From assembly GCA_021292105.1 (NCBI GenBank), contig CM037874.1, forward strand, positions 57,948,539 through 58,012,538: a stretch of DNA of 64,000 nucleotides, written 5' to 3'. This document shows, one piece after another, positions 19,801-48,400 of this stretch. The notes under the pieces were generated by a model that was not told the DNA's origin, made no database searches, and saw nothing but the letters and a program-made list of their open reading frames with translations. This DNA comes from Anadara kagoshimensis (lineage: Eukaryota; Mollusca; Bivalvia; Arcoida; Arcidae). Position 1 is the first letter of the stretch. Each line of letters opens with the position of its first letter. The position numbers and the translations under genes are program-made.

Positions 19801-20014
19801 GTACTGAAAGTACTAAAATTCGCGAAAGATTAGAAAGACAGGGAGTTCAGTGTCTCCATCAATGTAGTGTCAGGTATATGAAGTTGTCAGGTCTCTGAAA
19901 GGAGGTTGTTATGTTCACCTTGCATTGCTCCAAAGACAACATAGCGGGTTCGTGTAGTGTGCAATGTGCAGACTATGAGCATGGGGCTGTTTTAATATTC
20001 ACACATTGGATTTA

Positions 20015-23029: not shown

Positions 23030-23039
23030 CATACGAGAG

Positions 23040-24152
23040 GGTGCAAGTCATTTCGGCACCAGGTCATTTCGGCACCTGTAGAAAAAGTCATTTCGGCACC
23101 GAGTCAATTCGGCACCAGGTCGTTTCGGCACCTACAATAAGTCACTTCGGCATCTACGATCGGTCACTTTGGCACCTCCATTTTTTAAAATTTTTATTTC
23201 AATAAAATCACTACAGAATGTGTTTTAGTAGCTATAATTAAAAATTAATAAAATTTAAATAATAATAATAATAATAATTACCGGTGCATCAGCGGTACCG
23301 TGATTATTTACTTTTACAAATTCTTTAGATCTATGTAATAATAAAGAAATGGTGTGTACTGGTAGATTAGAGTGGAAAATGTGTTGAAATCTGGGCCGCG
23401 TGGATTGATTGGTGTTGCTGAAATATGTTTTTACATGTGTTTAATATGCTACTTTTCAAGTTTTTGAATATTTTAATTGAGTAGCCTATCAAGAATATGC
23501 GGCTTTGCAAAATATTTTACTTTCGTAGCTAGTCAAGAATATATTTACCTAAATCAAAATACAATATAACAAGTCAAAAGTATTTCATTGAAAACGCCAA
23601 TCTCTGCAGAAATTGTGGAAAAATTGTTTGTTTTAATTTAAACAATATTTTATTCACAAAATACAATAATACAATCATATACCAAGACCAATTAATTATC
23701 AGATTTCTATATATCTTTAAATTTTCATAGAAAAAATATTAAACTTCGTTTCAAAAGAAAATGAATTATGAATTTCTGCCAATATTTTGTCATCCGATAC
23801 CATTAAAATACTGAATTTTTGCATTTTTTAAACTTCAACAGAATTATTTTAAATGTAATTTCTGGGTGTTACATATAAACATTGTAAAAAGTGGATAAAA
23901 ATGATATGTGCACTGGGTTGTGTAGAGGGAAAACGTCAATAGTGTGATTATTATAATTATGTCCTCAGAATTATGACAAAGTTATACATAACCAATAATT
24001 TACAGTACTGACGATTAATCAGCTCTTAATAGTAAGTGTATTAGCAAGGTGCCGAAATTACCCGGTGCCGAAATGACCTTGTGCCGAAATGACTTGCCAA
24101 GTGCCGAAATGACCTGGTGCCGAAATGACCCGGTGCCGAAGTGACTAGGATT
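23040..24152. mobile_element. Foldback-like element D, subrepeat word GTCATTTCGGCACC
   Basis: The left arm (23040-23182) repeats the word GTCATTTCGGCACC about seven times; the right arm (about 24050-24146) repeats its inverse six times. The flanks are a perfect 10-bp direct repeat CATACGAGAG at 23030-23039 and 24153-24162. The interior is AT-rich with no transposase. Ends read GGTGCAAGTCATT on the left and, inverted, AATCCTAGTCACTT on the right. The architecture resembles foldback or Mutator-like elements with subrepeat-built terminal inverted repeats. Confidence 0.9.
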
Positions 24153-24279
24153 CATACGAGAGAGAGGTGGATTTTTGTAACGGAAGGACATAATTTCGAT
24201 ACGGGTTAAGAAATCTGCATGTAACAGCTACATTCGAGAAAGATCAAGATCTTTCGCGAATAATAAAACAAGGAACCTT

Positions 24280-24480
24280 ATTATTACCTGGAGATGTCTT
24301 GATATAAGTGAAATAATCTTGACTGAAACAAATGTTCCATTACTACCTGGTAATTTCTTTATATATGTGAAATAATCTTAACTGGTACAATAAACTCCAT
24401 AACTACATGGTGACATCTCAATATAAGTGAAATAATTTTGCATGGAACAAGACGTTTATCACTACCTTATGACATCTTAA
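24280..24480. repeat. ~60-bp minisatellite, array 2
   Basis: Three to four diverged units of the same type as 19300-19800 (GATATAAGTGAAATAATCTTG with ACTACCTGGT). The two arrays are separated by a pearl-like element, a hAT relic and foldback element D. Confidence 0.85.
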
Positions 24481-24709
24481 TATTATGGCAGCATATTTAG
24501 AACACGAATGAATTTTTTTTTTCTGTCCAAGCAAATTATTATTGTGCCCGAGCCGAATTTTTTTTATCTTTCGTTGTCCTAAATGGACTTCCATAAAATA
24601 TAATCTGGAATGGAACACAAAAATCCATTCCACATAAAAGTAAATTATTTCAAAACATTTTCTAGACTTTATTTCATATCAAACTGTGACATACTACAGT
24701 ATCCAATAG

Positions 24710-24912
24710 TCTTGGCTCCAGTTTCACAATCATTCCTTAGCTAAGATATTCCTCAACTTAAATTTTAAATAGCAGATTTTGGTAATCTCTTTTTGGAACT
24801 ACTGATGAATATTTAAGTCATAAATGACATATTAAATTTCTGATTATCTTAATTAACAAAATTATAAAGATATGCCAGATTTAAGTTAAGGAACGATTGT
24901 AACACCATGGCT
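24710..24912. mobile_element. MITE family 2 (CCAGTTTCACAATCATTCC ends), copy 1
   Basis: Left CCAGTTTCACAATCATTCCT then TAGCTAAGA. Right is the inverse, TTAAGTTAAGGAACGATTGT. A hairpin-like ~200 bp element, non-coding. Other copies: 30229, 30486, 45790 (left part), 51965 and 57327. Confidence 0.8.
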
Positions 24913-25261
24913 TATTATAAACATCTAACATGTAGTAAAATGGTAGACATCACATTACACAAAAGAAAACCTGCTCTTTATCAACTACATCTACCTAAAC
25001 ATATTCCATGGATTAAATAATTAGTTCAGAAATAATATTTTTTAAAATTTCTGAACCATTCTAAGTTATGAGAAAGAATTTACCCATTTCCTATGTTTTT
25101 TAGACCATTCCAAATTACAGGGAAGAAATTATCCAATTTAAAGACTTTTTTTGGACCATTCAAATTTTATGGGAAAGACATTAGTCATTTCTAATGATTT
25201 TTGGTCCATTTCAAATTATGGGGAAGAAATTATCCTTTTCTTTGGATTTTTAAAAGTAAGT

Positions 25262-25545
25262 TAAAGTCTGTCCCGAGCCATTAGGCCCATCAGGCCGGAG
25301 CTTATCCCGGTTTCAGTTGCGTTAAGCGACTGAGAGTACAAGACTCTCCCCTGAATGGGACGCCGGTCCATCGCAGGGTTAACCCCCAGCATTTTTGCTG
25401 GTACTCATTTATTTTTCAGCTGAGTGAACTGGAATGTGAAATTAAGTGTCTTGCTCAAGGATACAACACATCGCCCGGTCCAGGGATCGAACCCACAACC
25501 TTCGAATCATGAGTCCAACGCCTTAACCACTAGGCCACGCGCTTC
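25262..25545 (-). mobile_element. tRNA-headed SINE, family c (conserved central domain)
   Basis: The minus-strand head near 25545 has GTGGCCTAGTGGTTAAGGCG (A box) and GTGGGTTCGATCCCT (B box). The body includes CTGAATGGGACGCCGGTCC and the CAGCTGAGTGAACTGGAATG type of motif found in deeply conserved metazoan SINE domains (Nin-type; recalled, not searched). Confidence 0.8.
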
Positions 25546-25559
25546 CACTTTGGATTTTT

Positions 25560-26340
25560 GGACCATTCCAAAAGACTGGAATGAATGTATTTCATTTCTG
25601 TTTTTAATTTTACTTTTGGAATAATCAGGAAGAAATCATCTGGCTTTTTTTTTTTTTTTTGTTAATTTTTGGACCATTCAAAATTAAGGAAATAGAGATT
25701 ATAACCGGATGAAGCAGAACTGACAAGACAAATAAGTATAGAACAAACATGGTTTGACAAACAATTCCGACCAAGAAGCTATCGGACCATAACAAATACT
25801 TTCTGGTCCAATACTAGGTCATCTGCTCACTATCACATTTATCAGTGTTGGCAATATTTTCTATTTAATGGCTCTAAAGTTGGTATTGATCCTCTTGCAG
25901 TGTTTTCCACAAGAGGCAGCAACAGGCAGATTTGACCGCTTAAAACTCCTAATTGGCCGGTTAGAATTTAAAAAATAATTGCCTTCAGAAGACATGAAAT
26001 CATTTTCGGACTAGGAGTCTCTTTGACCTCTGGCCTGTTGGATTAGTCAATTTACCACCTGCTACAAAATTTAGGGAAATCACTGTCTTGTGGATTTTAC
26101 CAGAGGTAAAGAAATTTACTGATGGAGGGCTGAAGAAACACTTCCAGTATTGTATATATCAACTGATAAATTAATGTTTTCACATTCCAGCCTTCACTTT
26201 GACTGACAGGCCACTCACAACATGTACAGGCTTAAACTCGGCTTAAATTTTTTTGTCATTTCCAATAAATACATTTATAAACCTTCTAAACATACTATCT
26301 GGATGACAGTAATAATAATTATCAGCCTTCAATAAACAAA
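25560..26340. other. Non-coding spacer
   Basis: AT-rich. The phrase TTTGGACCATTC(C)AAA recurs several times from 25040 to 25680, on both sides of the SINE at 25262, as a loose ~70-bp repeat. The SINE appears to have inserted into this array. No gene seen. Confidence 0.5.
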
Positions 26341-26346
26341 CAATTA

Positions 26347-26841
26347 CTGTAAACATATTTATTTTTGCGGTGTACTAAATTTCGCTTATTTCGTGGTCGT
26401 TTGTTTTACGCCAAAACTAATACAAGGCGAAAATTATATTATACTTATATTTCATATTTCAAAAACGCGAAAAAAATAACTACGCAGATATTATAAGTTA
26501 TACATGGGGCTGTGTAACCTGCCAAAGCCCAGTATAACGTTTTTGTCATACTTCAAAGCGTAACCAGTTGAATCTTTTTAAATTCCATTTCGTATTTTGT
26601 GTGACTTGCGTACACTGTCGCCATGTTTGTTTACTGTAATTAGACGTCAGTGATGTACGAGTTACTTCCCTTTTACCGCTAAATGTTGCATGGGTTCATG
26701 TACCCCGGCAGATTTCTGAACATAGTTCCATGTACCCTGGCAAGTTAACCAATCGCTATGCGAGAAATTTCTTTGAAGGGTGACAAGTCTTAATATCCTA
26801 TACCGCAAAAAAAATACACACAGAATTAAATATGTTTACAG
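26347..26841. mobile_element. MITE family 3 (TA target, CTGTAAACATATTTA ends)
   Basis: Left CTGTAAACATATTTATTTTT then GCGGT; right is the inverse, ATACCGC ... TAAATATGTTTACAG. TA lies on both sides. About 495 bp, no coding capacity seen. It lies about 390 bp beyond the C1QBP stop codon. Confidence 0.75.
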
Positions 26842-27232
26842 TATATTTTTTAAATTTTTTTTACAGGTGTCATATACATGTATTATTTATTTTTTTTTTG
26901 ACATTACACATATTACTGATCAATCAGTCGTCAAATTATTATGTTTGTTTTTTGTAATTTCCTCAAATTATATTAATTTTACTAATTTTTCACATAAATT
27001 TTAATGATAACACTAGGTAATTAAAAATTCTTTTTTTATTTTTAGAGCTTTGAATTAAGTGTCAAATTTTCCATTGTGATGTCTATATTTCTCTATACAT
27101 TTAATGTACACATTTCAAAACAGTGATATATTAACCGTAATATTTTAATTTTTTGCTAAATGGCTCAAAAATATCTTTTAAAACCTTGATACAAATTGTT
27201 GATATAAAAAATTAAAACACAATAAGACACAC

Positions 27233-28858
27233 TCATTTTTCATCGACAAAAGATTTCAAATCTTTCAAGAAGTTGACATATTGTCTTTGTTCATATCCCG
27301 TACTGTAATCAACCAACACATTAGCAAACTCGGAAGTTATACCTCTATCATGTAGCAGATCCATCAACATGTCATACATTGTCTGAAACAAACAAATAAA
27401 TAAATAAATAAAACAAGAGGCCCAGGGGCCACATCGCTCACCTGAGCAACTTGCTAGGTAGAAGCCGAAATGAGTTCAGTATTGAAGTGAGTGCAGGGGA
27501 GGGAGGTTTTGTACAAACTGAAATCTATACTTCCTACCGATGCTTTTCACTAAACAATTTGTAAGTATTTCTATGTACCGTAAAAGGTTGATGTTTCGAC
27601 AAGCCTCGGCTTATTCCGTTACCTTTTTCTTACAGCATTTCAACCAATGAAATAATTTTAAAAAAAATTTTCATCATGCAATCTACCAATCTCAAAAGAG
27701 AGAAAATGCATAGGCAATCGGGAAATGGCAAATAGAAATTATAGAATACAGCAGGATTTACATTAAAAATTAGCTTTTAAATACAAGTACTATTAATATA
27801 TTTCTCATGAACAATATATTTAACTTTATATCAAAATACTTATATAAAAGAATACAGCATGGAAAATACACTATTATTTAACCATGATTTGAACAAACTT
27901 GAATCTACACTACCTGAGGATGCTTCCATTTTAATTTGAGCTTTCCTGGCCTAATAGTTTTTGAGGAGAAGATTTTTAAAGATTCTCTCTATATATTCCT
28001 GTGTAAAACTTGACCCCCCTCTTGTGGCCCCACCCTACCCCCAGGGACTATGATTTGAACAAACTTGAATCTACACTACCTGAGGATGCTTCCATTTTAA
28101 TTTGAGCTTTTCTGGCCTAATAGTTTTTGAGAAAAAGATTTTAAAAAATTTTCTTTATATATTCCTATGTAAAACTTGATCCCCCTCTTGTGACCCCTCC
28201 CTACCCCCGGGGACCATGATTTGAACAAACTTGAATCTACACTACCTGAGGATGCTTCCATTTTAATTTGAGCTTTCCTGGCCTAATAGTTTTTGAGGAG
28301 AAGATTTTTAAAGATTCTCTCTATATATTCCTGTGTAAAACTTGACCCCCTCTTGTGGCCCCACCCTACCCCCAGGGACTATGATTTGAACAAACTTGAA
28401 TCTACACTACCTGAGGATGCTTCCATTTTAATTTGAGCTTTTCTGGCCTAATAGTTTTTGAGAAAAAGATTTTTTAAAAATTTTCTTTATATATTCCTAT
28501 GTAAAACTTGATCCCCCTCTTGTGACCCCTCCCTACCCCCGGGGACCATGATTTGAACAAACTTGAATCTACACTACCTCAGGATGCTTCCATTTTAATT
28601 TGAGCTTTTCAGGCCTAATAGTTTTTGAGAAGAAGATTTTTAAAGATTTTCTCTATATACTCCTATGTAAAACTTGATCCCCCTCTTGTGGCCCCTCCCT
28701 ACCCCCGGGGACCATGATTTGAACAAACTTGAATCTACACTTCCTAAGGATGCCTCCACAAAAGTTTAAGCTTTACAGGCCGAATAGTTTTTGAGAAGAT
28801 TTTTGAAAAATACCAACAAAGTTTCAATAATTCTCAATTATCTCCCCTTTAAAGAGGG

Positions 28859-28897
<39 letters not shown>

Positions 28898-28945
28898 TAG
28901 TGGTGCTTTGTGCCAAATTTGGTTGAAATCTGCCCAGTGGTTCGT

Positions 28946-28984
<39 letters not shown>

Positions 28985-29004
28985 GACGACGACAGACAAC
29001 GGAC

Positions 29005-29036
<32 letters not shown>

Positions 29037-30187
29037 TGGCTCAGGTGAGCTAAAAACAAATAAATAAATAAACAAGTCAAAAAAAAACTAAAGCAGCCTC
29101 ATAAGAGACAAATCCCATTCCCCCATGACTAGACGGATGGACCCACTCCCCCATGACTAGACGGATGGACCCACTCCCCCATGACTAGACGGATGGACCC
29201 ACTCCCCCATGACTAGACGGATGGACCCACTCCCCCATGACTAGACGAATGGACCCACTCCCCCATGACTAGACAGATGGACCCACTCCCCCATGACTAG
29301 ACGGATGGACCCATTCCCCTATGACTAGACGGATGGACCCACACCCCCATGACTAGATGGATGAATCCACTCCCCCATGACCAATCCAAATTCAAACACC
29401 AAAGTTTATGGACCTTGTGGTTCCTGGATAGATAAATTGTCTGATCACTGTAGAAAAGAAAGCAAGTGGTTTTTCAAAATCCATTGCATATCAACAACCA
29501 AAACAAGCAACACCCTACAGAAGTCTATAAAATGAAGGTATACTCGAAGTATTTTCCTTTAGCTAAATTTGGTTAAATATATTTAAGGTCCTTTGGAAAT
29601 TTTTTTAATCCCTTAAAAAAAATTTTGGTTTCACAATTTTGGTCAAAGCACTACTGATGAGAAATTGTATTTCCAAATAGCTGTCTAGTGCTGTAAATTT
29701 AACACTTTGGATATTTTTTTTTAGCCCCTTAAAAAATTTTGGTTCACAGTTTTGGTCAAAGCACTACTGATGAGAAACTGTATTACGAAATGGCCGTCTA
29801 GTGCTGTAAAATTAACACTTTGGATATTTTTTTAGCCCCTAAAAAAAATTTTGGTTTCACAATTTTGGTCGAAGCACTACTGATGAAGAATTGTATTCCA
29901 AAACTGCCGTCTAGTTCCGTAAAATTCACACTGGTATAGAACATGTGATCTAAGTGAGTACAAAGAAAAAAGATGAGGTTTCTGCCAGGTGAATTAGTTA
30001 ACGAAAGATCTTACCCCTTCCATGGAAGATGACAGAACACTGTAACTAGATTCTTGTTGTTTGTTCTCGTATATAGCCACTGAATCTATCTCGTATAAAT
30101 CATCATCTTCGGCTGTAAATAAGTAAATAATTTATTAAGAATGTCCTGAACATTTTAAATAGTCATAGCATAACTTGGAGAATGTCC

Positions 30188-30222
<35 letters not shown>

Positions 30223-33200: not shown

Positions 33201-36200
33201 CTATGAACAATTTTTGTGCATGCATGTGAAGTGCGAGTGTGTTGTATGGTATGTCTTGTACTAGCGCGCACTCAGGGCGACTTTACCGTGCTAGCTCACA
33301 GAGTCAGTATGCCGCAGACAGGCGTACCACTCCCCCAGTCCATTATACTGATACCAGGTGAATCAGTAAAGGCCAACGGTAAGGAAAATTCACTTTCCCA
33401 CATGTAGTCCGAGCGGGACATCGAACTCACAGCAGTGAGAGACCCTGGATTTGAAGACTGGCGTCTTATCCATTAGGCTACCGCGCCCTCCTTTCTCTTT
33501 AATTTTTGCTAGTGACCTACTTATTAACCAACATAGCCCTTATACAAACTTAATTTAGATTTTGTCAATTAGATTACTATATCTAAGTGTGATGTAGTTT
33601 GGATAAAATTGTAGTCTTTACAGTGTTATCAAGCAACTATTGATGCACGACAAACATCGGTCAAAGTCCGGTTACAATGTGTGCTCAGGTGAACTAACAA
33701 GAAGTAATCGAAATTGAATGTCACACAACCCTATATCAGGGTTAGAAATTAAGACAACTCAACCAGCTTGAGCTGTATAACTTTTCAATCAAACCTGCAA
33801 TATGATGTAATTTGTGTTAAAACATTGAAATCCGAGATCAAACCAGGTTAAATTTTCAGCCTATTTTCGGACAATGTCCTGTAAGGTTGATATTCATACT
33901 CATGCCTAAATTAGAATTTTTAATGTCTCTCGGCACAGTGCCTTTAATAGTAAAGTAGGAATAAATAGGTAATAGAAATGTTTGATGCCCTAGACACCAG
34001 CTCAAAATAGTAAATGTAAATTCCTGCAGCTTGGCCTTCACTCACAATTCATCTTCCACTGTTCTTGTCATTGTAACGTTAGATTCATCTGTCTTGATAT
34101 CCCAGTCTTCTATTGATGGAAGTGGCTTTGAAAAACTGTCTGAAGACCTTTCAATCTTTATTTCTTTTTCTAGAAATTCAGAAAATTCTTTATCTCCTAC
34201 AAATAAAAAACAAAATTACTGAAAATCCAAAGTTGTATGTTTTATAGAAATATCTTTGATTTTCAGGGCTTATGCTAGGTAATTTTTGGGGCCAATATTC
34301 TGCCCCATTCACAATTAAAAAATCTTATGGTTTCAGGGATTTTTTTGGGTATCCACAGGGTCTGGTAAAGGGACCCATTCCCAATGCAAAAAAACCCATA
34401 CATTTTCCCCAATTCTATAGTAAAAAATTCCCAATTAGCTATGCTTATCAATTTTTTGAGAAAAAAAATTCACAAGATCATCAACATCATATTTGGAGGA
34501 TATCTCGTTCTGATAACAATTTCAATCTATATTAACCCACATTTTGATTTATATAGAGACAAAAGAGACAGCGCTATTTTGCTGTGAACACAGATATAAT
34601 TTGTTCAATTACCAGTATTCTAGTGGTCTAGAATTTTTAATATGTTGTTGTGATCAACAGAAAAATCCCTGTGTAACAGACACCTCTGTAGAGTCAAATA
34701 AAGAGTAGGCCACATGTATAAGAAACTATTGAATCAGACATAAAACTAAACCATGAAAACCGCCTAGCTGAACACTGGACTTGCAGAAGAGTGATACAAT
34801 GGTATTTTATAGTTTTCCCTCAGAAATGGTGGTATTTCAATAAATATATTTGTATTTCACAACGATGGAAAAAGGTACCAATCAAACGATGTCTCTTGTG
34901 TAATAATTGTAAATTATTAATTGAAGTGCTCTTGGGTACTCCAAAAAATGGCGGAATTTATAGCACAGGCATAGAAACGGTATCTGGTCAACTCGTTCCA
35001 ATTCCAACTCGTTCCAATTCCAACTCGTTCCAACTGATTTTCGCCAACTCGTTCCAACTTTTTTACCAACTCGTTCCACTTTTTTATGCAGGGTTTTTAC
35101 ATCTCTGTTTTAATTACCAACTCGTTCCAACTAAATTACCAACTCGTTCCAACTTTTTTTACCAACTCGTTCCAACTTTTTCTCCAACTCATTTTAAGAA
35201 TTTTTAATGATTTTAGCCGTTACCAACTCGTTACAGCTTTTAATATAATTAAATAATTAATTTAAGATAAATTGATTTAAAAACCAACGATCTCCTAATT
35301 TTTAATTAACCACAACGTTGCCCAGCTCTAACCACGTGGTTGAGCCACAATAGTCCAAAGTTCCAAAAAATATTTATTATATTACAGTTTTTTTTTTTTT
35401 TTAATGTTACATTTTTTATTTTCTTTATTTCTTTTGTATCTTTCTTCATTTCTTTTCTTAATTTGTTTATTATTTTATTCATTCTGATTGGTGCGATGTT
35501 ATTTTTTACTGTTATCGAAGTAGTTTTTTTTAAAAGTTCGTTTGATTTTGTTTAAGAATAATTTGCGTTTCAAGTTAAACCAATGTCATGTATTTTTCAC
35601 GCACACTTGTTGGCAAAAAGAGGAAATTTCACACTAATGTAGACAGGGTTTATTTGTGAATTTAAAATTCCTTTAAAAAATAAAGGATACGCTGCTAACC
35701 CGCTAGTTAATGAGCTTGTTAACCGGACAAACTATCCGGTTAAATCTGTTTATGGTGCCGATCTACCAACTAGTAGAGTTCCGACGGCCGTAATAAACAA
35801 AGAAATAGCAATTAATTGTGATCACCATCCATGATATTATTTATTTGTTAGATAATTTACTTGTTTCTACATTATGCTATTCTAGAGATGATAGTACGTC
35901 AGGTTTAATGTGTGCTTAATTGTCACTTGAATTAAAGGAGACTATGGGGAATATTTATCTATTAAAATAAAATAAAATAAAATAAAAACGCATGTACATA
36001 GATATAATCAACTTTATTGAGAAACTTGGTACGAGTTGATAGTTGGAACGAGTTGGTAATTCAGTTGGAACGAGTTGGTAGTCAAAAGTGGAACGAGTTG
36101 GCAAAAATCAGTTGGAACGAGTTGGAATTGGAACGAGTTGACTAGTATTCATAGAAACCGGTCCCTAGAAAATAAGCCCAGGGAACAAAATAAGCCCAGG

Positions 36201-39200
36201 GAAAGCCCAGGGAAGTTTCCCACGCCCAGGAAGTTATAAAGCATTACATAGATGTGAAATTCACATATTTATTAAAGATCATATCATATTTTATCATGTT
36301 AAAAAATTGTATCGATCTAAACCAGAATGACAAAGTATTTTATCATTGATTTTTTCACCTTACAGTATGCGTCGGTGAGTGAAGGGAGATAACTCACTAT
36401 CATAGAATACTCAATTATTAACGTGGGGGAATGTTATCTATTGTCTTTCTAATTTTGGTTTTTGAATTGGATTTGTTATGCAAGGTGACGTAAATAATTT
36501 AATAAAAGATTCCTGACGTACAGAGATGAGATTTAAAAAATAATAACGATGAATACGGTATATTTACTTTACAAGTGAAAAATACTAATTTTTCCCTTCA
36601 TTTACAAAATGTAACTAGTCTTTAAAACAAAACAAGAGGCCCATGGGCCTGATACGCTCACCTGATAACTAATGGCTAGCTGATAGATTTAAAGACAACA
36701 TAAATACTAAACCCCAATGACTTTTTTCTTTACATCATGATAACCGTTGTATCAATACCTACAACATTCTAGTATACATGCCTATACAAAAAGTTAATAG
36801 TTTTCAAGATAATTAACCATTCAGTATTGTTTCACATCTGTGACCTTGACCTTTGAACCCATGACCTTTTTCTATACATCAAATGATTGTTGTATCCATA
36901 CCTACAACATTCTAATATACATGCCTATAAAAAAAGTTTATAGTTTTCGAGATAATTAACCATCTTGGCATTGTTTCGCATCTGTAACCTTGACCTTTGA
37001 ACCCATGACCTTTTTCTATACATCAAAATGATTGTTGTATCAATACCTACAACATTCTAATATACATGCCTATACAAAAAGTTTATAGTTTTCGAGATAA
37101 TTAACCATTTTGGGATTGTTTCGCATCTGTGACCTTGACCTTTGAACCCATGACCTTTTTCTATACATCAAAATGATCGCTGTTTCAATACCTACAACAT
37201 TCTAATATACATGCCTATACAAAATGTTTATAGTTTTCGAGATAATTAACCATTTTGGCATTGTTTCGCATCTGTGACCTTGACCTTTGAACCCATGACC
37301 TTTTTCTATACATCAAAATGATCGTTGTATCAATACCTACAACATTCTAATATACATGCCTATAAAAAAAGTTTATAGTTTTTGAGATAATTAACCATTT
37401 CGGTATTGTTTTGCATCTGTGACCTTGACCTTTGAACCCATGACCTTTTTCTATACATCAAAATGATTGTTGTATCAATACTTGCAACATTCTAATATAC
37501 ATGCCTATACAAAATGTTTATAGTTTTCGAGATAATTAACCATTTCGGTATTGTTTCGCATCTGTGACCTTGACCTTTGAACCCATGACCTTTTTCTATA
37601 CATCAAAATGACCGTTGTATCCATACCTACGACATTCTAATATACATGCCTATACAAAAAGTTTATAGTTTTTGAGATAATTAACCATTTCTGTATTGTT
37701 TCGCATCTGTGACCTTGACCTTTGAACCCATGACCTTTTTCTATACATAAAAATGATTGTTGTATCAATACTTGCAACATTCTAATATACATGCCTATAC
37801 AAAATGTTTATAGTTTTCGAGATAATTAACTATTTCGGTATTGTTTCGCATCTGTGACCTTGACCTTTAAACCCATTACCTTTTTCTATACATCAAAATG
37901 ATCGTTGTATCAATACCTACAACATTCTAATATACATGCCTATACATAAAGTTTATAGTTTTCGAGATAATTAATCATTTCCGTATTGTTTCACATCTGT
38001 GTCCTTGACCTTTAAACCCATGACCTTTTTCTATACATCAAAATGATCATTGTATCAATATCTACAACATTCTAATATACATGCCTATACAAAATGTTTA
38101 TAGTTTTCGAGATAATTAACCATTTCGGTATTGTTTCGCATCTGTGACCTTGACCTTTGAACCCATTACCTTTTTCTATACATCAAAATGATCGTTGTAT
38201 CAAACCTACAACATTCTAATATACATGCCTATACAAAAAGTTTATAGATTTCGAGATAATACTTATAATCAGAGGTAAAAAAAATAAGGTCACGACCTTC
38301 ACAATTGACCTTGACCTCATTTTGAAGATACTAACAAGAAGATGTCAAAACTGAAAACCCCATGTCATTATCTGGTCAAATAGTCAAGTTATAACAATTT
38401 GAAGCTATTTTACGATTTTTTCAAAATTAAACGCAAAAACGCGTAACCTATTTTTTGTCCGAATTTTACAAAATGAACAAACTATAGGCTTAAGACCCTA
38501 GAGAAGCCAAATATCACATCAGATTTTTTCTCTGATCAGTAATTTCGGAGAAGAAGATTTTTTAAGATTTTTGCACCCCTAGGTCACCTTGACCTAGTTA
38601 TGGTAGCCATGGCAACGCCACGAACAAATCTGAATTGCACCGGCCCATATATACTTCTGACAAAGTTTCATTAAAAACTGTCCAGTAGTTTCAGAGTAGA
38701 AGTCGAAAATAGGTGTTAACGACGCACGCACGCACGCACACACGCACGCACGCACACACGCACATACACACGCTGCGCTATGCCATAAGCTCACATGACC
38801 TTCGGTCAGGTGAGCTAAAAAGGAAATAATAAATTTTCATAATCGAAGGTTTTTCTGAGTTTTTACGAAGTAATGTCTAATAACTGTTTTAAAGGACTTT
38901 TTGTGAATTTTTGGTTTGTCAGTAATGTATTGGCTTATACTAATACTATGGAGTTTCCTGACGAAGGACAGTTAGTATGTTAAACACATTTTAATGTTAA
39001 CACTGAAATTATTGTTCTTGTTTTGTTTGGCTTCTTCTTTGAAATTAAAATTAAATCGTGTGTAAAACAATTTGCTGTTATCAAATTCTTTGTCTCAGGT
39101 AAGCCAGACAAGTCTGTTACAAGGTGAACACGTGCCGTGAATAAACACCCGCCGGGTATAACAGACGACCTCAATATACTGTGACGGGTATAAAGCCTGA

Positions 39201-41265
39201 TCAATCAGTACTGATTCATACTCCTAATTAACGGATTAATTTACATCTTCGGTTAATCGGATTATTAATATATCCCGTAAAAGTGTTAGGAACTTTATGC
39301 ATAGTATATATTTGTTTTGGTATTTGATCCTTATTATGGAGAAAATATTTCCAATCATGACATACCTTCATATCTGTATTATTAAATAAATAAATTATAA
39401 ATTAAAAGTTGTGTAGTCGACATGCATTACTGTACATGTTATAAATAGAAGAGTATTTGCCCGTTTTATTTTCGTACATTAGTGTGAATATATTTTATGG
39501 AGAGATTCAATAAATGATGATGGCTGTCATAAGAAATGTACGAGATGATTGTTTCATCTTTGTAATAAATATCTTATAAACCGTCACTCATAGAATCCAG
39601 TATCGGGTTAGTGTGTTAAATTCTCTAAGAAAATTGTTCTATTACATAGAAATTTCGTCCGCATATTTACAGTATTGTTCGGAAAGTGCCGTCATCTAAC
39701 GGTGGAGAATCTCTCTCTCTCTCTCTACCAGATTAGAGGATCGAAAATGTCGACTTTACACCATAAAAAGATGGAGGGGCATTATTAAATATTAATTATT
39801 TAACATACTCCTAAAACATTGCGGTCTGTGAAAAAATCGTTTCGAGCGGACCTATGTCTTTTGTGAGTACAATTGTTGTCTGACAAACTCTAGAAATATT
39901 GCGATGAATATTCACACAATAAATACAACAATCCCGATAACAGAAAATGGCGGGAAATGGCACGTGGCGACGGAATCTTTTCATATCTTCTCATATCTTC
40001 AGTGTAATTTAGGAAATCAACTTTTGAAAAATTCTCACTTTGGTTCATGAGTTTAAATTATGAAGTATTAGTAGGTAAATAAATTTCACGGAGACATAAA
40101 CGGAATGTATACTTTCGTCCTTAATACTTTTGATATTACAGTGCAGCAAGCCGCTAAATATTACCCGGACCACTTGTTCATTAGTCAATTACTTTCCACC
40201 GTGTTCACTTGTTCACGATTAATACGAATTAAGAGTTTTTAACTGGCACAGATGATTTGTTTGCCTTTCAAAAATGCGTGTACCAGGCGTGATAGTTCAT
40301 ATTCTAAGGCTACCAACGATCCAAGGGAAGATTATAAAAGCTAAGCTTGTATATTACTTGATTATTGTTGAGGCATATTCGGCTTTATATAGTTAACTAT
40401 TGTTAAAACAAAACAATATTCACCTCAATTCAAATAGAACAGTATTGTGTGACCGTGCACTTTTAGTGACTTGTTTTATTTTGGATTATTAGTGGCCTTA
40501 GAATATAAATATCACGCCTGGTACACGCACTTTTAAAAGGAAAATAAATCGTAGATAACCTCAACCGTAAATTGTCGAGTTTTCAAAAACCTCGTATATC
40601 TTTAACAAACTCTGGCCCCTTTGCACTGCTCTATGACGTTGACTATCTTAATATCTTTTCATTTTTTAAAATAAATTCGTTATACAAGGTGTAAGCTTTT
40701 TCCCCCCAACACGTGTATTTTTGCACAATTTTCTTTAAAAAATGCAATAAATATTTTATAAACTCTTAAATTATCAATTCCTATTTTATTTGTATTTATA
40801 AATCTTCACACTTGTGTAGATAATTTCATAATTATACCCCTATTTCACGCTTTTCAACCAAATGGTTTTCACTTGAATTTTCCTACTTAGATGACCCTTA
40901 AACAACATTTTATTCAATAAGTACAATTACAAATAATGAAATGATAGGATTCTGGGACTAAAATTTGTTGTCGACGAGAGGTGCATTTCAACAGTGGTCA
41001 ATAGAAAGGCAATGGGATTGCATAAGTTTTTGAATCAACTTTACACCCGGCAGTAATAACTTCATAATATGTCTCGTTCACACTTGTCCTTCAACGACAG
41101 TAATGTGATGCAAGTTACAAATTGTCATACATTACTTCTACGGGGTAATGGAATAAGTAAATCATTAAAATGGTTATTATGATGATGTATGAATTTCTTC
41201 AAAAAATATTTTTACGATTATATCTATACATAATAATATTCATTTATAGATAGTGTGTTTTGTTG

Positions 41266-41301
<36 letters not shown>

Positions 41302-42051
41302 AGATCCAATGTCTACAAGAGTTATCTCTCTTTGATGATAAAGCCTAGCGGTCTCACGGTGTCGGAAATTCAAAGTCAAATTATTCCATTTTTCTTTCAC
41401 CAATCTCATGCATTTTTTAACAAGATTATAAATAACACATGTTTATCAGTATTTCAAAATCACAGACTTCTACCATGCATTGTAAACTCCTGGGCGGAAA
41501 AAATATGCATAGACTGTACAAGCATGGAGTCGCTGCCGATATCAAAAACGAAAAGTGAAATTTCTCCATTTAAACTCAATCAATTTTAATGATTTTTTCA
41601 CAAAAGTATAAATAGCATATCATAAGTAATATTACAAAATTTTAACCTTCTAGCATGTATAGAATACTCCTGGGCACGAGAAACGTCCCTGGGCTTTCCC
41701 TGGGCTTATTTTCTAGGTACCCCATAGAAACAGCACAGGCATAGAATAGAAACAAGTAGGAATGAATGAAATTGCATACATCGGTATATTATCACCACCA
41801 GTTTTACCTTCAGTGTGCATTCTCCGACTGTCACATTTGTTGCAGAGGTTATTGGATAAAAACTGTAAGCTGTCCATGTTTTGAGTTGTCTTCACCATTG
41901 ACCAGTGGTAACCTCGTGTTTTTCCAATGTCACAAATCGAATACCTCGGGGAAACTTTTATGTGATCAGTTACACGAATGCATTTTTGGCTAAAGTTCTT
42001 CAACAATTTGCATGTTGAAGACGTCACTGTTCTACCAATCAAAGATGTCAT
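27233..42051 (-). CDS. C1QBP: Mitochondrial p32/gC1qR (complement C1q-binding protein), six exons
   Basis: Exons on the minus strand: 41808-42051, 34046-34196, 32917-33019, 32133-32265, 30015-30112, 27233-27382. All introns are GT-AG and the phases (1,2,0,1,0) keep one frame, giving 292 residues against 282 in human. Residues 1-80 are basic, Ser/Thr/Lys-rich and low in acid, as a mitochondrial targeting presequence. The mature part starts near HTEGDKEFSEFLEKEIK, then ITVTFNTVDS, an acidic loop (TGEDEEQVPT), STPTFKVEIKKPSGK, EDDDLYEIDSVAIYEN, and the C-terminal helix pair TMYDMLMDLLHDRG ... FLKDLKSFVDEK. These follow the MAM33/p32 family in order. The family forms a doughnut-shaped acidic trimer in the mitochondrial matrix, with roles in mitoribosome function and C1q binding. 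Intron 1 is 7.6 kb because of inserted elements. A candidate AATAAA lies about 195 bp past the stop. Confidence 0.95.
27412..29055 (-). mobile_element. Pearl-like element, copy F3, in C1QBP intron 5
   Basis: Left end AACAAGAGGCCCAGGGGCC followed by CGCTCACCTGAGC; right end hairpin GAGCCTTTGGCTCAGGTGAGC then TAAAAA. The core has about five ~168-bp tandem units starting ATGATTTGAACAAACTTGAA and ending in a CCCCTCCCTACCCCCGGGG-type phrase. A short CGA repeat (28977-28992) sits near the right end. AAATAAATAAATA-like sequence flanks both sides. Confidence 0.88.
29117..29385. repeat. 28-bp minisatellite
   Basis: Nine to ten near-identical units, CCCCCATGACTAGACGGATG plus GACCCACT, just beyond element F3 in C1QBP intron 5. 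Confidence 0.95.
29560..29935. repeat. ~115-bp tandem repeat, three units
   Basis: Three diverged units with AAAATTTTGGTTTCACA, TTTTGGTCAAAGCACTACTG, ATGAGAAATTGTATT and GTCTAGTGCTGTAAA. Ends about 80 bp before exon 5 of C1QBP. Confidence 0.88.
30184..30222. repeat. Poly(T) tract
   Basis: Run of about 30 T in C1QBP intron 4, directly left of a family 2 MITE. Confidence 0.9.
30229..30470. mobile_element. MITE family 2, copy 2
   Basis: Left GGGCCCCAGTTTCACAATTG, right inverse AGGAATGATTGTGAGAGCC. Adjacent to copy 3. Confidence 0.8.
30486..30754. mobile_element. MITE family 2, copy 3
   Basis: Best-kept copy: left CGCCCCGGTTTCACAATCAT then TCCTTAGCTAAGA; right AATCTTGGCTAGGGAATGAT then TGTGAAACCAGGGC. 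The arms pair over about 45 bp. Confidence 0.88.
30874..31333. repeat. 51-bp minisatellite, nine near-identical copies
   Basis: Unit: CTGTCACTGTGGCACACTAC, ATGTAAACTTGTTGTGATGA, TATGCCAGTGT. Because 51 is a multiple of three and no unit frame has a stop, long open frames appear on both strands; these are by-products. The array is bracketed by a perfect 9-bp inverted repeat, AGACCATTC at 30868-30876 and GAATGGTCT at 31333-31341. It lies in C1QBP intron 4. Confidence 0.97.
31640..32110. other. Repeat-like block with TGGCGAAA motifs
   Basis: The phrases TTTGGCGATAAAAACC, GATGGCGAAAAAAAG, ATTTGGCGAAAAAAA and TCTGGCGAAAGTTTTGG are scattered over 470 bp in C1QBP intron 4. It looks like an unclassified mobile element; ends were not defined. 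Confidence 0.4.
32775..32875 (-). mobile_element. SINE family b tail fragment
   Basis: GGCTGGTTGGCTGAATGTTG, then CAATTTTTCAGCTAT, matches the tail of the SINE at 33105-33490. No tRNA-like head. Confidence 0.6.
33105..33490 (-). mobile_element. tRNA-headed SINE, family b
   Basis: On the minus strand, the head near 33488 reads GGCGCGGTAGCCTAATGGAT (A-box region) and has GAGTTCGATGTCCC (B-box region). The tail ends with the inverse of GGTTGGTTGAATGTTGCC. It lies in C1QBP intron 2, between exons 3 and 2. Confidence 0.75.
34265..34520. other. Repeat-like GGGCCAATATTCTGCCCC block
   Basis: Phrases such as GGGGCCAATATTCTGCCCC and AAAAAACCCATACATTTTCC are low-complexity and resemble a similar block at about 31420-31500 (GGGTCGATACTCTGTCC). 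Probably an unclassified dispersed repeat in C1QBP intron 1. Confidence 0.4.
34979..36149. mobile_element. Foldback-like element A, subrepeat word CCAACTCGTTCCAA
   Basis: The left arm (34988-35240) repeats CCAACTCGTTCCAACT about nine times and the right arm (about 36028-36141) repeats the inverse five to six times. Ends read GGTATCTGGTCAACTCG on the left and, inverted, AATACTAGTCAACTCG on the right. It is flanked by a perfect 9-bp CATAGAAAC at 34970-34978 and 36150-36158. The AT-rich interior has no recognisable transposase. It lies in C1QBP intron 1. Confidence 0.9.
36634..38820 (-). mobile_element. Pearl-like element, copy F4, with ten core units
   Basis: Left end AAGAGGCCCATGGGCC then GATACGCTCACCTGA; right end AAGCTCACATGACCTTCGGT then CAGGTGAGCTAAAA. 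The core (about 36740-38265) has ten ~146-bp units, each with ATACATGCCTATACAAAAAG, TCGAGATAATTAACCATTT and GACCTTGACCTTTGAACCC. An ACGC/ACAC microsatellite lies at about 38722-38770. It is the inverted relative of the copy at 60743-61995. Nested in element B. Confidence 0.92.
38821..40272. other. Interior of element B, no gene seen
   Basis: AT-rich non-coding sequence with a short CT run at about 39712-39727. Reading frames are short and resemble nothing recognisable. Confidence 0.4.
40273..40907. mobile_element. Partial copy of the TTAA-flanked inverted-repeat element
   Basis: The right arm (about 40620-40903, ending ATTTTCCTACTTAGATGACCC then TTAA) matches 59870-60124. The left arm is missing. 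In its place is an inverted pair containing GCGTGTACCAGGCGTGATAG (40277-40296) and its inverse at about 40517-40538. Confidence 0.7.
41270..41298. repeat. (CA)n microsatellite
   Basis: About 14 CA units followed by GAGAGA, within element B near its right end. Confidence 0.97.
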
Positions 42052-42138
42052 TGCAAAGAATTAAATGATTAGCCTGATGAAATGCAAAGTTCTTCTGTTT
42101 GACCTGAAACCGGAACACGTGTATTAAGTGAAGATATA

Positions 42139-42149
42139 CGCATGCGCAA
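42139..42149 (-). promoter_or_regulatory. Candidate NRF-1-like site upstream of C1QBP
   Basis: CGCATGCGCAA about 90 bp upstream of the C1QBP start codon. It matches most of the palindromic NRF-1 consensus (TGCGCATGCGCA), a factor that drives many nuclear genes for mitochondrial proteins. Functional use is inferred from position and target type only. Confidence 0.45.
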
Positions 42150-42373
42150 AACTTCTTCTTCTTCTATGGCGTTGTTACCTCCTCTAGCAGGAGCACCGCT
42201 ATTGCTGTTGAAATGGCGTATATTATTATAAATAAACGATTAGCACTCAAACATGTCAAATTACTTATATATCGATCTGCATGCAGTCCTCAACCAGGAA
42301 TATTTACATTTGGGTTGGGTTAATATACAATGTTCATAGTCTCTCAATGTCCATCATTTCACTGTTTATATTC

Positions 42374-43120
42374 CATAGGCGTAGGAGGGTTTTTAATATT
42401 TGGGGGGGGGGGGGGCAAACCGAAGCTATGTCTAAGTCGTGCCGCAGGTACGACCTATGGCACGAGGCGGGGAGAGTATGAGAGGGGTGCTAAACCCCTC
42501 GCATAGGTGGGGGTTCGGGGGGCCTCCCCCGGAAAATTTTCAAAACTAAGTCCTGTCTAGACGCATTCTCAATGTATTGTGCATCGTTTCGATAGGTAAA
42601 AATACTGTGGTATCAAGGCAAGATTATACCGTATGAAACAAGTTCCGTAATCAATCTCTCTCATTGAAGATGATTCAGAATTTTAGAAAGGGGGCGTATA
42701 ATGTGAAAGCCGAAGGCTCAAACCTTCTAGGGTGGTTCGGGTGCATGCTCCCCCGGAAAATTTTGAAAAAAATGGCGCAAAATCCTGCATTCTGGTGCAA
42801 TCTAAACTGATCAATATGTATTATTAGCGACAAAAGGGGGGGGGGGGTAAGCCCCCCGCTGAATCCGCCACTCAGGATATGGGGGTACCCCGGAAAATTT
42901 TGACGCCCTTTTACAAGTATAATGATGAAATTGATAATTGATTGGTTACCAGATGGACATTTCCTGTTAAAGCTCTTGGTTTTTTTTAATTTTTTTTCTT
43001 TTTTTTTAGCATGATACAAAATTTCACACAATATATTGCGGGGGCCTGGCCCCCCCCCCCTTCTCTGACATTGGGGGGGGGGGGGCGGCCCCCGCTGCCC
43101 CCCCTGCTCCTACGCCTATG
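42374..43120. mobile_element. 747-bp inverted-repeat transposon with CATAGGCGTAGGAG ends
   Basis: Left CATAGGCGTAGGAGGG, right CTCCTACGCCTATG, flanked by the 5-bp direct repeat TATTC at 42369-42373 and 43121-43125. Runs of G or C and CCCCCGGAAAATTTT motifs lie near both ends (42400-42545, 42735-42760, 42835-42900, 43050-43105). No transposase. Its left edge lies about 320 bp upstream of the C1QBP start. Confidence 0.88.
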
Positions 43121-43256
43121 TATTCACTCCTGCCCCATTAATGTTACTGTTACATCAAAAATTTTGTACGTCTTTGAACTAAGTTATAGCAGAGTCCTCC
43201 TGTAATTGTTTCTATTCTGTTAGTTTCCTTTTTATTGATGATATGAAAGGCGGTAC

Positions 43257-44415
43257 AGTCAATTATCGGGGTCGCAATTCTAGCAACATCAGTCGGAGTT
43301 CACACAATACAGATTGAGAGTAATTTCGATCATATTGTAAATAGGTTTTCAGTTCTGGTTCAGCAATGTACTTGTTTCGGATTGTGTCAAGCGAACTGCA
43401 GGTGACTAGGAAGTGTACAATATCCCCTGGTTCTTTCATGCAGAGTTTGCAGGTTGGTTCAATAGGCGATTTTGAAAATTTTGATCTATGAGATTGAAGT
43501 AATAAAGTTCCAACGGCAATTTTTGCTTTCATCGAGGCCATAGTGACTGCAAAGGGTTGAGTGCCAGAGCTACTCCAGATATTGTGAGGTTTACCAGATA
43601 CTGTGTCGTTCAAGCTTAGGAATTTCAGTGTAGATTTATCCTCAGCTTCTTTTTGAAGAATTGTGATGTGAAAGTTGTCGACTGTTCTATTGACTTATGC
43701 GTTCCATGATTCTTTAGGAGGTGGGCTAGATAAAAGTTCATGTGGACAAGGTAATTCGTACTTATTTGCAATTTCAACTACTTAAGCGAACCAGCTGTCA
43801 TGACTATTGCTGGTCATAGCAAGTTTTCTGAAGGATATTTCCTTTTCAATAAAGTAATCATTACGAATGATATTGCCAAACGTTTTGAGTATCTTTTTAT
43901 CTATTTCTGCAGATATTGGTATTCTTCCTAAAAGTAACAAAGAAGCACAGTTTGCAGTCCTTATAGGCAGGTGCTTTATTTGTTTTGTGAGTTTAACATA
44001 GAAAGAGTCCAGTTTTTTTACATATAAGCAAGACAGCCTGACAATATCGAGTCCATAGAGAAGACGAGGTATAACGAAAACTCTGATCAAATGCGATGAG
44101 ACTGTTGGACTTATCCCGTTGAGGCCATGTAGCCCCGCACCCATGAGAGCATATACTGTTCTTCTTGCTGCGATAATACATTCAGCAGATGTCTCTTTAT
44201 TTCCTGATTTGCAAGAAGTGTCTCTTATGATGCCGAGATGAACAGACGAGTTAGAAACATTGATTTCTTTATCGTTCAGTGTCCATTTACTATTTTCTTT
44301 ATCATTAAATACAAGGACGGTTGACTTCTGTTCGCTGATGAGATATCTTTGCTTGTTTGCATACGCAGTTTGTACATCAAGCATTGTCTGAAGTTCGTAA
44401 GGACTGTTGGCAATT

Positions 44416-44418
<3 letters not shown>
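43257..44418 (-). pseudogene. Non-LTR retrotransposon fragment (reverse transcriptase C-terminal part)
   Basis: One frame on the minus strand from about 44418 to 43263. It starts ELQTMLDVQTAYANKQRYLI, a phrase typical of the palm/thumb border in LINE reverse transcriptases (LQTMLD...), then VSNSSVHLGIIR, FVIPRLLYGLDIVRL, and a C-terminal zinc-binding-like C-x2-C-x8-H-x4-C (CKLC...HFLVTC). Two in-frame TAA codons (about 43782 and 43687) break it. The 5' part is absent and the fragment stops at a TCA microsatellite. The clade (CR1/Jockey-like) cannot be settled by eye. Confidence 0.8.

Positions 44419-44482
<64 letters not shown>
44417..44482. repeat. (ATC)n microsatellite
   Basis: About 21 ATC/TCA units directly at the 5' truncation point of the LINE fragment. 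Confidence 0.97.
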
Positions 44483-44737
44483 TTATAGCAAACCATTATC
44501 TATAAGTGAAGTTTAGCTTGTAAATATCAGAGACATATACTCGGCAAGGTTTTATATTTAACTAACTTACAGTAGTTTCAATTTTGCAGCACAAGACGAC
44601 CGTTTACGGCATGGGCCGTCTTACAACGATAAACGAGTTAAGAATATAGTAGAAATAGACTAGCTTATAATAGATTTTTCGTCGATCCACGGGTTTACAA
44701 GAAACTACATCCGTTGAAGAAAGGCAGTCTATTATTA

Positions 44738-45135
44738 TTATTATACCTCCACAAACTAGTTTGAGGGGGTATAGGGGATATATTGGAATCGTCATATGTC
44801 TGTCTGTCCGTCCGTCTTTCTGTCTGTCTGTAAAAATCGTGTCGGGATTATATCTCATAGCTGCTTTGGACGACTGTCATAAAACTTCACACGAATAATC
44901 CTCATGGTTCAAGGGTGTGTCATGACCGTGAACCAAGATCATATAGAAAAGGTCAAGGACATTGGTAATATATGTTTAAAAAATCGTGCCCGGGCAATAT
45001 CTCTTAGCTGCTTTGAAGGAACCCTGTGTGAAGGTCATGTCGCATTAACCCTTACAGATGTTGGGAGCGGAGGGGGTATTTGGCTCTCAAAAGACAGTTC
45101 AAGTTATCTGGTTATGATTATTATTCGACCTTAAA
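44738..45135 (+). mobile_element. Dispersed element end with CTGT/CCGT tetranucleotides
   Basis: Starts ATTATTATACCTCCACAAAC then TAGTTTGAGGGGG, with TGTCTGTCTGTCCGTCCGTC at about 44797-44816, then TATATCTCATAGCTGCTTTG. An inverted relative lies at 48820-49012. The tetranucleotide tract and head phrase resemble bivalve pearl-type elements (recalled, not searched). Confidence 0.6.
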
Positions 45136-45468
45136 CTGACCATATATGTATGCCGAGATGATTTTCCGCGCTCTAAAAACAATCAACAAAGGCGGCGGGA
45201 ATTGAACCCAAAGCGAATATCAAGTGAATATTTCATAGCGGAAGGACTGATCAAGATAGAAGAGTAACTGAATAACCAGGACAATGGCGATTAAACGACG
45301 ACAACCTAGTTATCTGAATATGAAGGTAAATTAAAGCTGTGACTGTAAGAATTGGTACATATTACGTTTTAGACTGTACACCAGAAGTGCCACGGTTATA
45401 GATAAGACACACTGAAGTCACGAATATAGGAATTATAAGTACCTCACGGTACTACTTGTATTTACAAT

Positions 45469-48400
45469 ATGGTTTGTCTACAAAGTATTGTAATTATCCT
45501 GGTTCTAAGCTCAGGTAATCGTTTAAAATACATATTCTTCATTGCTTTTACATGCTTTCAATATAGTAAATGATAAATTGAAAACGTTCTTCTTTTAGAC
45601 GCATTATTTTATAAATATTCAAAATAGCACAAACTGTAAAATGCCATGCTCTCTTATCATCTTCTCTATGTGTTATGTACATGTATTACTAGTATCTTAA
45701 TGTCACCACCAGATATGTAGGAGTGAATATAGATTTGTTGCAAAAAGTACTTACTGCAATAAACATTATGATAATTTCATATCGCTTGCCTGTGCTCCAG
45801 TTTCACAATCATTGCTTTACTAAGATTCCCCTTCACTTAAATTTTGCAAATTTTTGCAATCTCTTGTAACTATGGATGTACATTTTTTTACGAAACTAAA
45901 TGCAGATGTTTTACGGTGGAGGTGATCTACAAAATGACACCTTAAATTCACAAATATCTTAAAATGGCAAAATTATTAAGATTTCGAATTTACCAGTTTG
46001 AGTTAAAATGGAATCTGTAAAGAGAAAGGTAAAGTTAGCTACTAGTAACCGACTAATAGTAGCTTGCTACTTGTAGAAGAAAAGTTACCTACTAGTAGCC
46101 AATTACTTGTTAGAAAAGCAGCTGGTTACTTTAAAAAGATATCATCTATTTACAGAGTAACCAGCTTCTTTTCTAACAAGTAATCGGCTTGTAGTAGCTA
46201 ACGTTTCTCCCACAAGTAACTGGATACTAGCAGCTAACTTTTCTTCTACAAGTAGCCAGCTACTGGTAGCTAACTTTACCTATCTTCTGTAAAGTGTGCT
46301 CATTTATTAATCGTGGTATTCAACTATCAGGAAAAACCTTACTCGTTTGAAATGGTTTTTATTCTGCATCACTTTGACATATTCTTTTAACACTAAGGTG
46401 GTGAAATTGTAAACTGCTTTGCTCTCTTACCATCTTGGCTGTTACTCTGTGTATTGCTATATGTTATGTTGCCACCAGTTATGTAGAATACATTTCTGGA
46501 AAAAACGTTTTAGTATGCTTACTGCAATAAAAGGTATTGATATTGAAATTGAATTGAAATTTGAAATGGCACATCATCTGCCTTAAACTAAGTCGGATGG
46601 TGCTAGCTATACAGCTCATTCCACAAAGAAACGTCATCCCCTACTTTCCATAAAGACACGTCACCACTAGTACAATAATAGTAAGAACAAAAATACAAAT
46701 ACTACAAACGCATTTCATTTAGAAGTGATTTATTTAGAGTCAGTGGCATTGCTTAGTATCGACACAAGCTAATTATAATTCACAGAGGCACCTTTTGCTT
46801 GAATAACACGTTGAGGGAGTGGCGAATCAAATTTTGACATTCTGATTACTAGTACTTGATCCGTTACCAGTGCTTTTTAACAGACTGTCAAAGGTCTGTT
46901 GACTATCTTCGGCTCTCTTTTCAATGGAGTCACACAAATTTTCAATTTGACTAATAGGAGGAAAATTTCCGGGCCAATCAGGGGAAATTTCATTGTTTCT
47001 TGTAAGCAATTCACAATGAAAAATCCTGCTCAAATTTATATTTTCGGAATTACTAGTATGTTATATAAAGCTTAGGTGTACTTAAGCAGGTTACTGACAC
47101 CTTAAATAGTCAACGCTACCAAACATATAAAATAAGTTAATTGTGAATTGTGTATGTTTGGTTTCAGCAAGACCTTGCTCCTGCTCATGAATAGATCTAA
47201 ACCGAAGAAGCAGTTTCTTGAAACAATTGACATTGCTATCCTTGGCTGGCTCGGCAATTCTCGTGATATGACTCAAATTGAAAAAAATATGTGACTCTTT
47301 TAAAAAGAAAGTAGCCGAAGATAGTCCAAAATTGTCAGGAGCTTAGGCCATCTGTTAAAAATCACTGATATCAGACCAAGAAATCAGAATGTCAAAAGTT
47401 GTATCGCACACCATTTCGTCGTGTAAGGGATCTTGTTCAAGCTTCTACAAAATACTAGCTGAAAATTAGCTTGTGTTGAAACCAGGCAATGTCAATGTTT
47501 CTATGTAATTCACTTCTATCCAAGATACAATTTGTTGGATATGTATTTTTGTACCTACTGTTATCGTATGAGGGGTGACGTTTCTTTATGGAAATTAGGG
47601 GGTGACGTTTCTTTGTGGAATGACCTGTACAGGAGGAGCTTACCCTTCCTGAGCACCTGTTGAGCTTCCTGCTGGAAGTTCACGGTTTTAACCCATTAAA
47701 CCAGTTTCAAAGTTTTTACTTTACTTTGGGATTGTGATTTGTGAACTTTGTTTTGATTACATTCCACATTATTTGCCCCTTAAGACAACAATCTTAGCAA
47801 TGTGCTATACGACAACTGACACACCAAGTACGCAGGCATTCATCCTGAGAGCTGATAGAGTTGCTGCTGACAATGTTAACAACAATTCTAACATGACCTG
47901 CGTTTTCCTTCATATGAAACACGTAGAGAGCCAGCCGTGGTATAACAAACGATCCATCACTGTTTCGTTTTAATTAATGACGCACTCCCTTGCTTATCTT
48001 ATGACGTCATGCTATGTGTCACGAACAATGGTTGTGACGTAATTTTCATTCATAAAATTATCAATTTCAATGGCGGTAATTTCAACAGCCGAATTGTTTC
48101 AATGGACCTTTTTGCAAATAGATAGTATTATGTACTTCCGAAGAAAGAGTTCGCAATGTTTAGTTCAACCCTGTTTATCTAAGCCATGTTAGAATTGAAA
48201 TGATCAACTATTATCCGTGGTATATCGTCGAATAATACACGGGCCGTCGTTAACATGCAGCGCCGGAATATATCAATTGGTGGCATAGCCACCTCGTGAT
48301 ATATATTCTTCCACATGTGAACTCCGGCCAGTGTATTATTCGACGATATTCCATGGGTAATTGTTGATTATTTCTTAAATAATGTCATGTACTACATTTG

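Follow-up and report, generated by a model that had tools for sequence, protein, structure and literature searches.

Transposons with inverted arms built of short tandem words are the closest described counterparts of four elements, A to D, that we analysed in the bivalve Anadara kagoshimensis. They lie in a stretch of 64,000 nucleotides, hereafter the window (NCBI GenBank assembly GCA_021292105.1, contig CM037874.1, positions 57,948,539 to 58,012,538 of the forward strand), and are labelled A (from 23040), B (34979), C (36159) and D (46023). Tm1, of the Mutator/Foldback family in Meloidogyne, has asymmetric 7-bp ends, CGGTTAA and CCTACCC (reverse complement GGGTAGG), a tandem word of about 14 bp present in 1 to 9 units per arm, a Phantom-type transposase of the Mutator-like elements (MULEs) and many non-autonomous copies; duplications of 8-10 bp flank 45 of 53 elements, and the word differs by about one base between two nematode species (PMC3169594). 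The ends of C are like those of Tm1 in that they begin with CGGT and GGGTA, whereas the word is not the same, C has few words, and the terminal bases of A and B are different. Aedes aegypti has 14 MULE families with 8-9 bp duplications and many non-autonomous copies, and 10 of the 12 families with long terminal inverted repeats (TIRs) carry subterminal tandem repeats of 9-15 bp; Muta1 combines a 10-bp terminal motif with nine 12-bp repeats, and Muta5 an 8-bp motif with nine 15-bp repeats (PMC5225508). As in our elements, a terminal motif is thus followed by tandem words and duplications are 8-9 bp long, but host and words are different, and a common terminus with differing words, such as that of A and B, is not discussed in the passages of that paper available to us. 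MULEs are already known from bivalves (PMC10294476).

Other word-armed or repeat-armed systems have been described. Galileo, of the P superfamily, has long foldback-like ends with tandem repeats, some of them with measured transposase binding sites (PMC3688188), but its transposase is of the THAP type, its repeats are longer, and no such protein was linked to A to D. Tetris/DAIBAM, foldbacks of Drosophila virilis, have tandem repeats in their arms, 8-10 bp duplications and no transposase found (PMC4079207); they differ from our elements by a repeat unit of about 220 bp. Rehavkus has a transposase with a PHD finger and a minisatellite ahead of its 3' TIR (PMC6446971).

Our main finding is that A, B, C and D are separate multi-copy transposon families. 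We consider it likely that the four are transposase-less copies of separate DNA transposon families, those of A to C being Mutator-like, and that the words are family-specific transposase binding sites. An initial annotation of the window had described them as a single foldback-like family whose words had been exchanged and afterwards made alike in the two arms. The four elements, their arms, words and flanking repeats are positioned as it stated, and all are multi-copy transposons genome-wide; the proposed foldback or Mutator-like anatomy was also borne out, with inverted arms built of words, the same word in both arms of one element, and reproducible duplications of 8-9 bp. The features are as follows (window positions, unstranded).

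23031..23038, left target duplication of A, ATACGAGA, 8 bp, which appears as 10 bp with matching terminal bases
23039..24153, element A, 1115 bp including terminal bases, ends GGGTGCAAGTCA and GAATCCTAGTCA; word GTCATTTCGGCACC, 7 copies left and 6 right (up to 3 mismatches)
24154..24161, right target duplication of A, ATACGAGA
34971..34978, left target duplication of B, ATAGAAAC, or 9 bp, CATAGAAAC, if adjoining C is counted
34979..36150, element B, 1172 bp, ends GGTATCTGGTCA and GAATACTAGTCA; word CCAACTCGTTCCAA, 10 copies left and 6 right (up to 3 mismatches)
36151..36158, right target duplication of B; CATAGAAAC at 36150-36158 doubles as the left duplication of C
36159..41722, element C, 5564 bp, ends CGGTCCCTAG and GGGTACCTAG; word AAGCCCAGGGA; empty paralogous site at locus L040
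41723..41731, right target duplication of C, CATAGAAAC, 9 bp
46014..46022, left target duplication of D, TCTGTAAAG
46023..46285, element D, a foldback of 263 bp, ends AGAAAGGTAAAG and AGATAGGTAAAG; word GTTAGCTACTAGTA
46286..46294, right target duplication of D, TCTGTAAAG

Genome-wide searches covered an assembly of 1.115 Gb in 36 contigs. DNA searches returned 118 matches with A, 163 with B, 157 with D and 70 with the right arm of C (40 candidates scored in each case, out of 379, 480, 667 and 150, respectively); these numbers include matches of an arm to the opposite arm, and are not copy numbers. The A end pattern was found 216 times with at most one mismatch, and the C end pattern 157 times with one mismatch allowed. 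As the reversed patterns used as controls were found 0 times, the ends of both A and C are beyond chance.

One end of A and one end of B are identical at 11 of 12 bases (9 of the first 10), a common terminus that the initial annotation had rightly picked out, and the words start in the same register after it. The opposite ends of A and B have 5 of their first 10 bases in common, then a common GTCA. Outside the ends, A and B gave no blastn match at an E-value of 0.01. The ends of C and D have at most 5 of 10 bases in common with those of A or B, C comes closest to a fifth family of this genome, E (7 of 10 bases at one end), and the termini of D have at most 5 of 10 bases in common with any other family. 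Different termini and lack of similarity together rule out that the four elements form one family. One 37-bp match (84% alike, E-value 3e-5) links the interior of A (about 23638-23674) with that of C (about 40898-40932).

The words themselves were compared by their best match over all rotations, using six words (those of the five families and that of Tm1) and shuffled words as reference. They are no more alike than shuffles in 14 of 15 pairs, the A-E pair being borderline (0.055), and a common ancestry of the words is therefore not supported. When the register is fixed by the terminus, the A and B words are identical at 8 of 14 bases, 4 of which are GTCA; this is too little to decide. First word spacings are 16 and 24 in the A arm with GGGTGC, as in most B arms, and 16, 16 and 20 in the other A arm. 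To follow the linkage of terminus and word, the genome was searched for the common A/B terminus plus a next base absent from both window copies, which gave 118 matches versus 88 in the reversed control. Among the first 100 of these 118, A words follow in 48, all with GAATCC, B words in 3, all with GAATAC, and neither word in 49. One terminal base predicts the word in all 51 recognisable ends, with no swap of terminus and word among them. A third word was not evident at the 49 remaining sites, which were not given a dedicated tandem-word test.

Target duplications of A, B and D were scored by script, constant terminal bases being assigned to the element; those of C and E were read by eye. The bases that travel with A and B were identified by comparison of insertion sites, and the 10-bp repeat at the window copy of A consists of an 8-bp duplication and one matching terminal base per side. 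Duplications are perfect at seven of eight A loci (8 bp in six, 9 bp in one), the eighth having one mismatch. At 30 B loci, 19 are perfect (8 bp in 13, 9 bp in 6), 4 have one mismatch, 2 have no duplication and 5 lack an end; L039 and L040 represent a single B insertion in duplicated DNA. Seven C copies gave 9 bp in five, 8 bp in one and an imperfect pair in one (L069); they include a perfect 9-bp duplication, CTTCCAGTA, at L070, and four further copies with CCCGAAATT, CCAAATACT and ACATTATTT (9 bp each) and TAAATGTG (8 bp). For D, 30 loci (one place entered twice) comprise 18 with a perfect 9 bp, 3 with one mismatch, 3 worse and 6 with an end missing. Most D copies (L010-L038) have common flanking DNA and the common target TTCTATTAT; because most loci have one target, there are about three independent insertions, and D seems to have spread mainly within a larger repeat. 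Duplications of 8-9 bp are found in A, B, C, D and E, within the 8-11 bp range given for MULEs in PMC6446971. Of the lengths first proposed (10, 9, 9 and 9 bp), reproducibility holds, while the 10 bp of A reduces to 8 bp with matching terminal bases, and 8 bp is more frequent than 9 in A and B.

The limits of C rest on an empty site. Locus L040 (C18 near 57.54 Mb, about 440 kb away) duplicates window positions 33490-36158 and 41723-43204 and has B without C; this segmental duplication of window 33490-43204 fills the entire fetched locus and thus measures 4 kb or more. As its two alignments with the window share exactly 9 bases at the joint, C extends from 36159 to 41722 with CATAGAAAC as its duplication. 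Long inverted arms of short tandem words, that is, foldback-type ends, are present in A, B and E. C as present in the window can hardly be called a classic foldback, since its arms align over 45 bp only and contain few words (3 exact ones left, 2 right); the TIR, 45 bp in this copy, reaches 236 bp in L069, and so few words are atypical of foldback ends. Of the 157 C ends, the first 100 in the list include 37 pairs that face each other, 30 of them with a spacing of 1.6-3.4 kb. No open reading frame (ORF) longer than 111 amino acids was found within window C, part of whose length is made up by a 145-bp tandem array (36717-38260). Further arrays with a 145-bp period lie at window 61234-61911 and 20006-20388, and a 34-bp unit is present in 136 copies (91% matches) at 1223-5849.

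A long copy of C, L070 (7.8 kb, with C-type ends), has a 206-amino-acid ORF that matches the MULE profile PF10551 at 26.8 bits, the Pfam cut-off being 27.6; a search of solved structures with this ORF returned recA fragments only, over 28 residues. The Mutator-like nature of C is supported by this one long copy. Near the MULE ORF (L070:1965-4754) are ORFs that match NADAR (above cut-off), GDSL hydrolase (just below) and OTU protease (weakly), which suggests accessory or captured genes. L069 resembles L070 in much of these contents, and no MULE ORF was seen in it.

The MULE profile search yielded at least 76 places in the genome. Family E was recognised at L072, where a 497-amino-acid ORF with FLYWCH and MULE domains (MULE match 31.4 bits, above the Pfam cut-off) is flanked by arms of repeated CATTACCGCGACAT; its ends, GGGTACATTAC and GGGGAAAGCTC, start with GGG, and its duplication, GTTCATGT, is 8 bp long. 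In six more E copies an 8-bp duplication is present in two, TTTCACAT (terminal bases altered at one end) and GAAAATAT; of the other four, one has no duplication and three have an end missing, different or unread, so that 8-bp duplications flank 3 of the 7 copies viewed. Because E has word arms and 8-bp duplications, the genome holds MULEs with an anatomy like that of A and B. The E transposase has at least 89 matches genome-wide, and six full-length copies without a stop are about 100% identical, suggesting that the family was active recently. Pfam scans of the E protein and of six L070 ORFs, the latter partly fragments, detected no PHD finger, a trait of Rehavkus. At another MULE locus, L073 (C15:2645800-2651000), two 479-amino-acid FLYWCH-MULE genes about 3155 bp apart form a tandem duplication, and repeats resembling TTCATGATTGTCCCTTTT surround one of the two.

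From their anatomy, A and B are probably Mutator-like elements of foldback type. In the reading that we favour, ends would have two parts: the outer one, a terminal motif of about 8-12 bp, would be cut and joined, leaving the 8-9 bp target duplications that are observed, and transposition would be by cut and paste. By analogy with Galileo, the ladder of words inside the motif most likely provides multiple sites at which the family's own transposase would attach by its DNA-binding domain. A single protein binding both ends would explain why both arms of a family have the same word, and a transposase proper to each family would explain why words differ between families, with no need of copying from arm to arm. 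This reading is favoured because L070 combines C-type ends, a perfect 9-bp duplication and a MULE ORF; because in E a FLYWCH-MULE transposase goes together with word arms and 8-bp duplications; because arm identity in B is equal within and between elements (see below) and a base of the terminus tags the word; and because the anatomy matches that of Tm1 and Muta1.

Several results weigh against it. The MULE match of L070 is below the cut-off, and at L071 the C end faces away from the MULE ORF, with no clean arms; nor were clean arms obtained at the MULE loci L095 and L073. Five long pairs of A ends (3.4-5.7 kb), compared by eye, do not overlap any of the at least 76 MULE or at least 89 E-transposase matches. 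The long B copy L074 (6.1 kb) has one ORF of at least 90 amino acids, with no Pfam match, and otherwise only short open segments, which were outside the Pfam scan. A transposase of A or B was thus not found in the long copies examined. None turned up for D, for which no search of long copies was made, and D is unplaced among superfamilies. A copies cluster at C8:8.63-8.75 Mb and 9.40-9.41 Mb, some spaced about 3.3 kb, probably through local amplification of a larger unit.

The explanation first advanced, by which a single family had its words replaced and then homogenised through hairpin-templated repair or gene conversion, could account both for the one word in the two arms of an element and for A and B having termini alike at 11 of 12 bases, yet words no more alike than shuffles. 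If arms converted each other, both arms of an element would have private variants in common. In B (24 of 30 loci usable, first 100 bp), identity between left and right arms is 0.7430 within elements versus 0.7409 between elements, and 231 of 2000 permutations reach the within-element value; with 130 bp it is 0.5914 for both (1021 of 2000). The loci include two pairs, L039/L040 and L044/L047, that look like the same insertions in duplicated DNA. For A (n = 8) identity is 0.6085 within and between elements, and the test has little power as A arms are almost invariant. Gene conversion between arms is therefore not supported in B. Left arms instead resemble other left arms: same-side identity over the first 100 bp is 0.915 (left) and 0.884 (right) in B, and 0.997 and 0.964 in A, so that arms are inherited by side. 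In 21 B copies (aligned columns, gaps excluded), conservation is higher in the arms (0.95-0.97) than in the interior (0.90), and slightly higher in word columns than in spacers; the words within B look constrained, not replaced, and show no turnover. With no swapped pair among the 51 recognisable ends, and other ends in C and D, replacement followed by homogenisation is disfavoured at the age of the present copies, and we hold it to be highly improbable. Different words at the same duplication size are already known, because the mosquito MULE families show both (PMC5225508).

It is conceivable that only C and E are Mutator-like; A and B would then come from a different superfamily, hAT or P/Galileo-like, in which ends are rich in repeats and duplications are 8 bp long. 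The duplications of A and B are mostly 8 bp, no MULE was found inside their long copies, and Galileo is a foldback-like P element. However, E, a FLYWCH-MULE, also has 8-bp duplications, ends starting with GGG and word arms, and Muta1 of the mosquito duplicates 8 or 9 bp (PMC5225508). In addition, the P-type profile PF21787 was located at 17 places genome-wide (41 of 41 candidates scored), and neither L074 nor any of the five long A intervals, the only copies checked (by eye), contains one of these; this lowered slightly our estimate of the alternative, which we regard as quite unlikely. The common terminus of A and B might also be a convergence between unrelated families. The absence of a blastn match, the unlike words, and the near-chance frequency of the bare terminus outside A and B copies (118 versus 88 in the control) speak for this, whereas 11 of 12 bases alike at the same end, with the word in the same register, and the 5 of 10 bases and following GTCA of the other ends speak for a relationship; convergence appears unlikely to us. 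Alternatively, the ends could consist of two modules evolving at different speeds, A and B having kept the cleavage terminus while all words were exchanged, as would happen if a transposase gained a new DNA-binding domain and kept its catalytic specificity. This idea arises because the terminus is common, one A arm has the B-like 16-24 word spacing, and the words are different; we view it as rather improbable.

Our favoured reading, separate Mutator-like families each with its own word, makes these families additions to a known design, and the terminus common to A and B leaves a modest question. To the foldback-type Mutator-like elements the study contributes further families with well-defined limits, one of which has several transposase copies that are not interrupted. 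The data argue, at least in B, against gene conversion from arm to arm as the process that keeps arms alike, and the A/B pair offers a natural system for how a transposase switches its address word.

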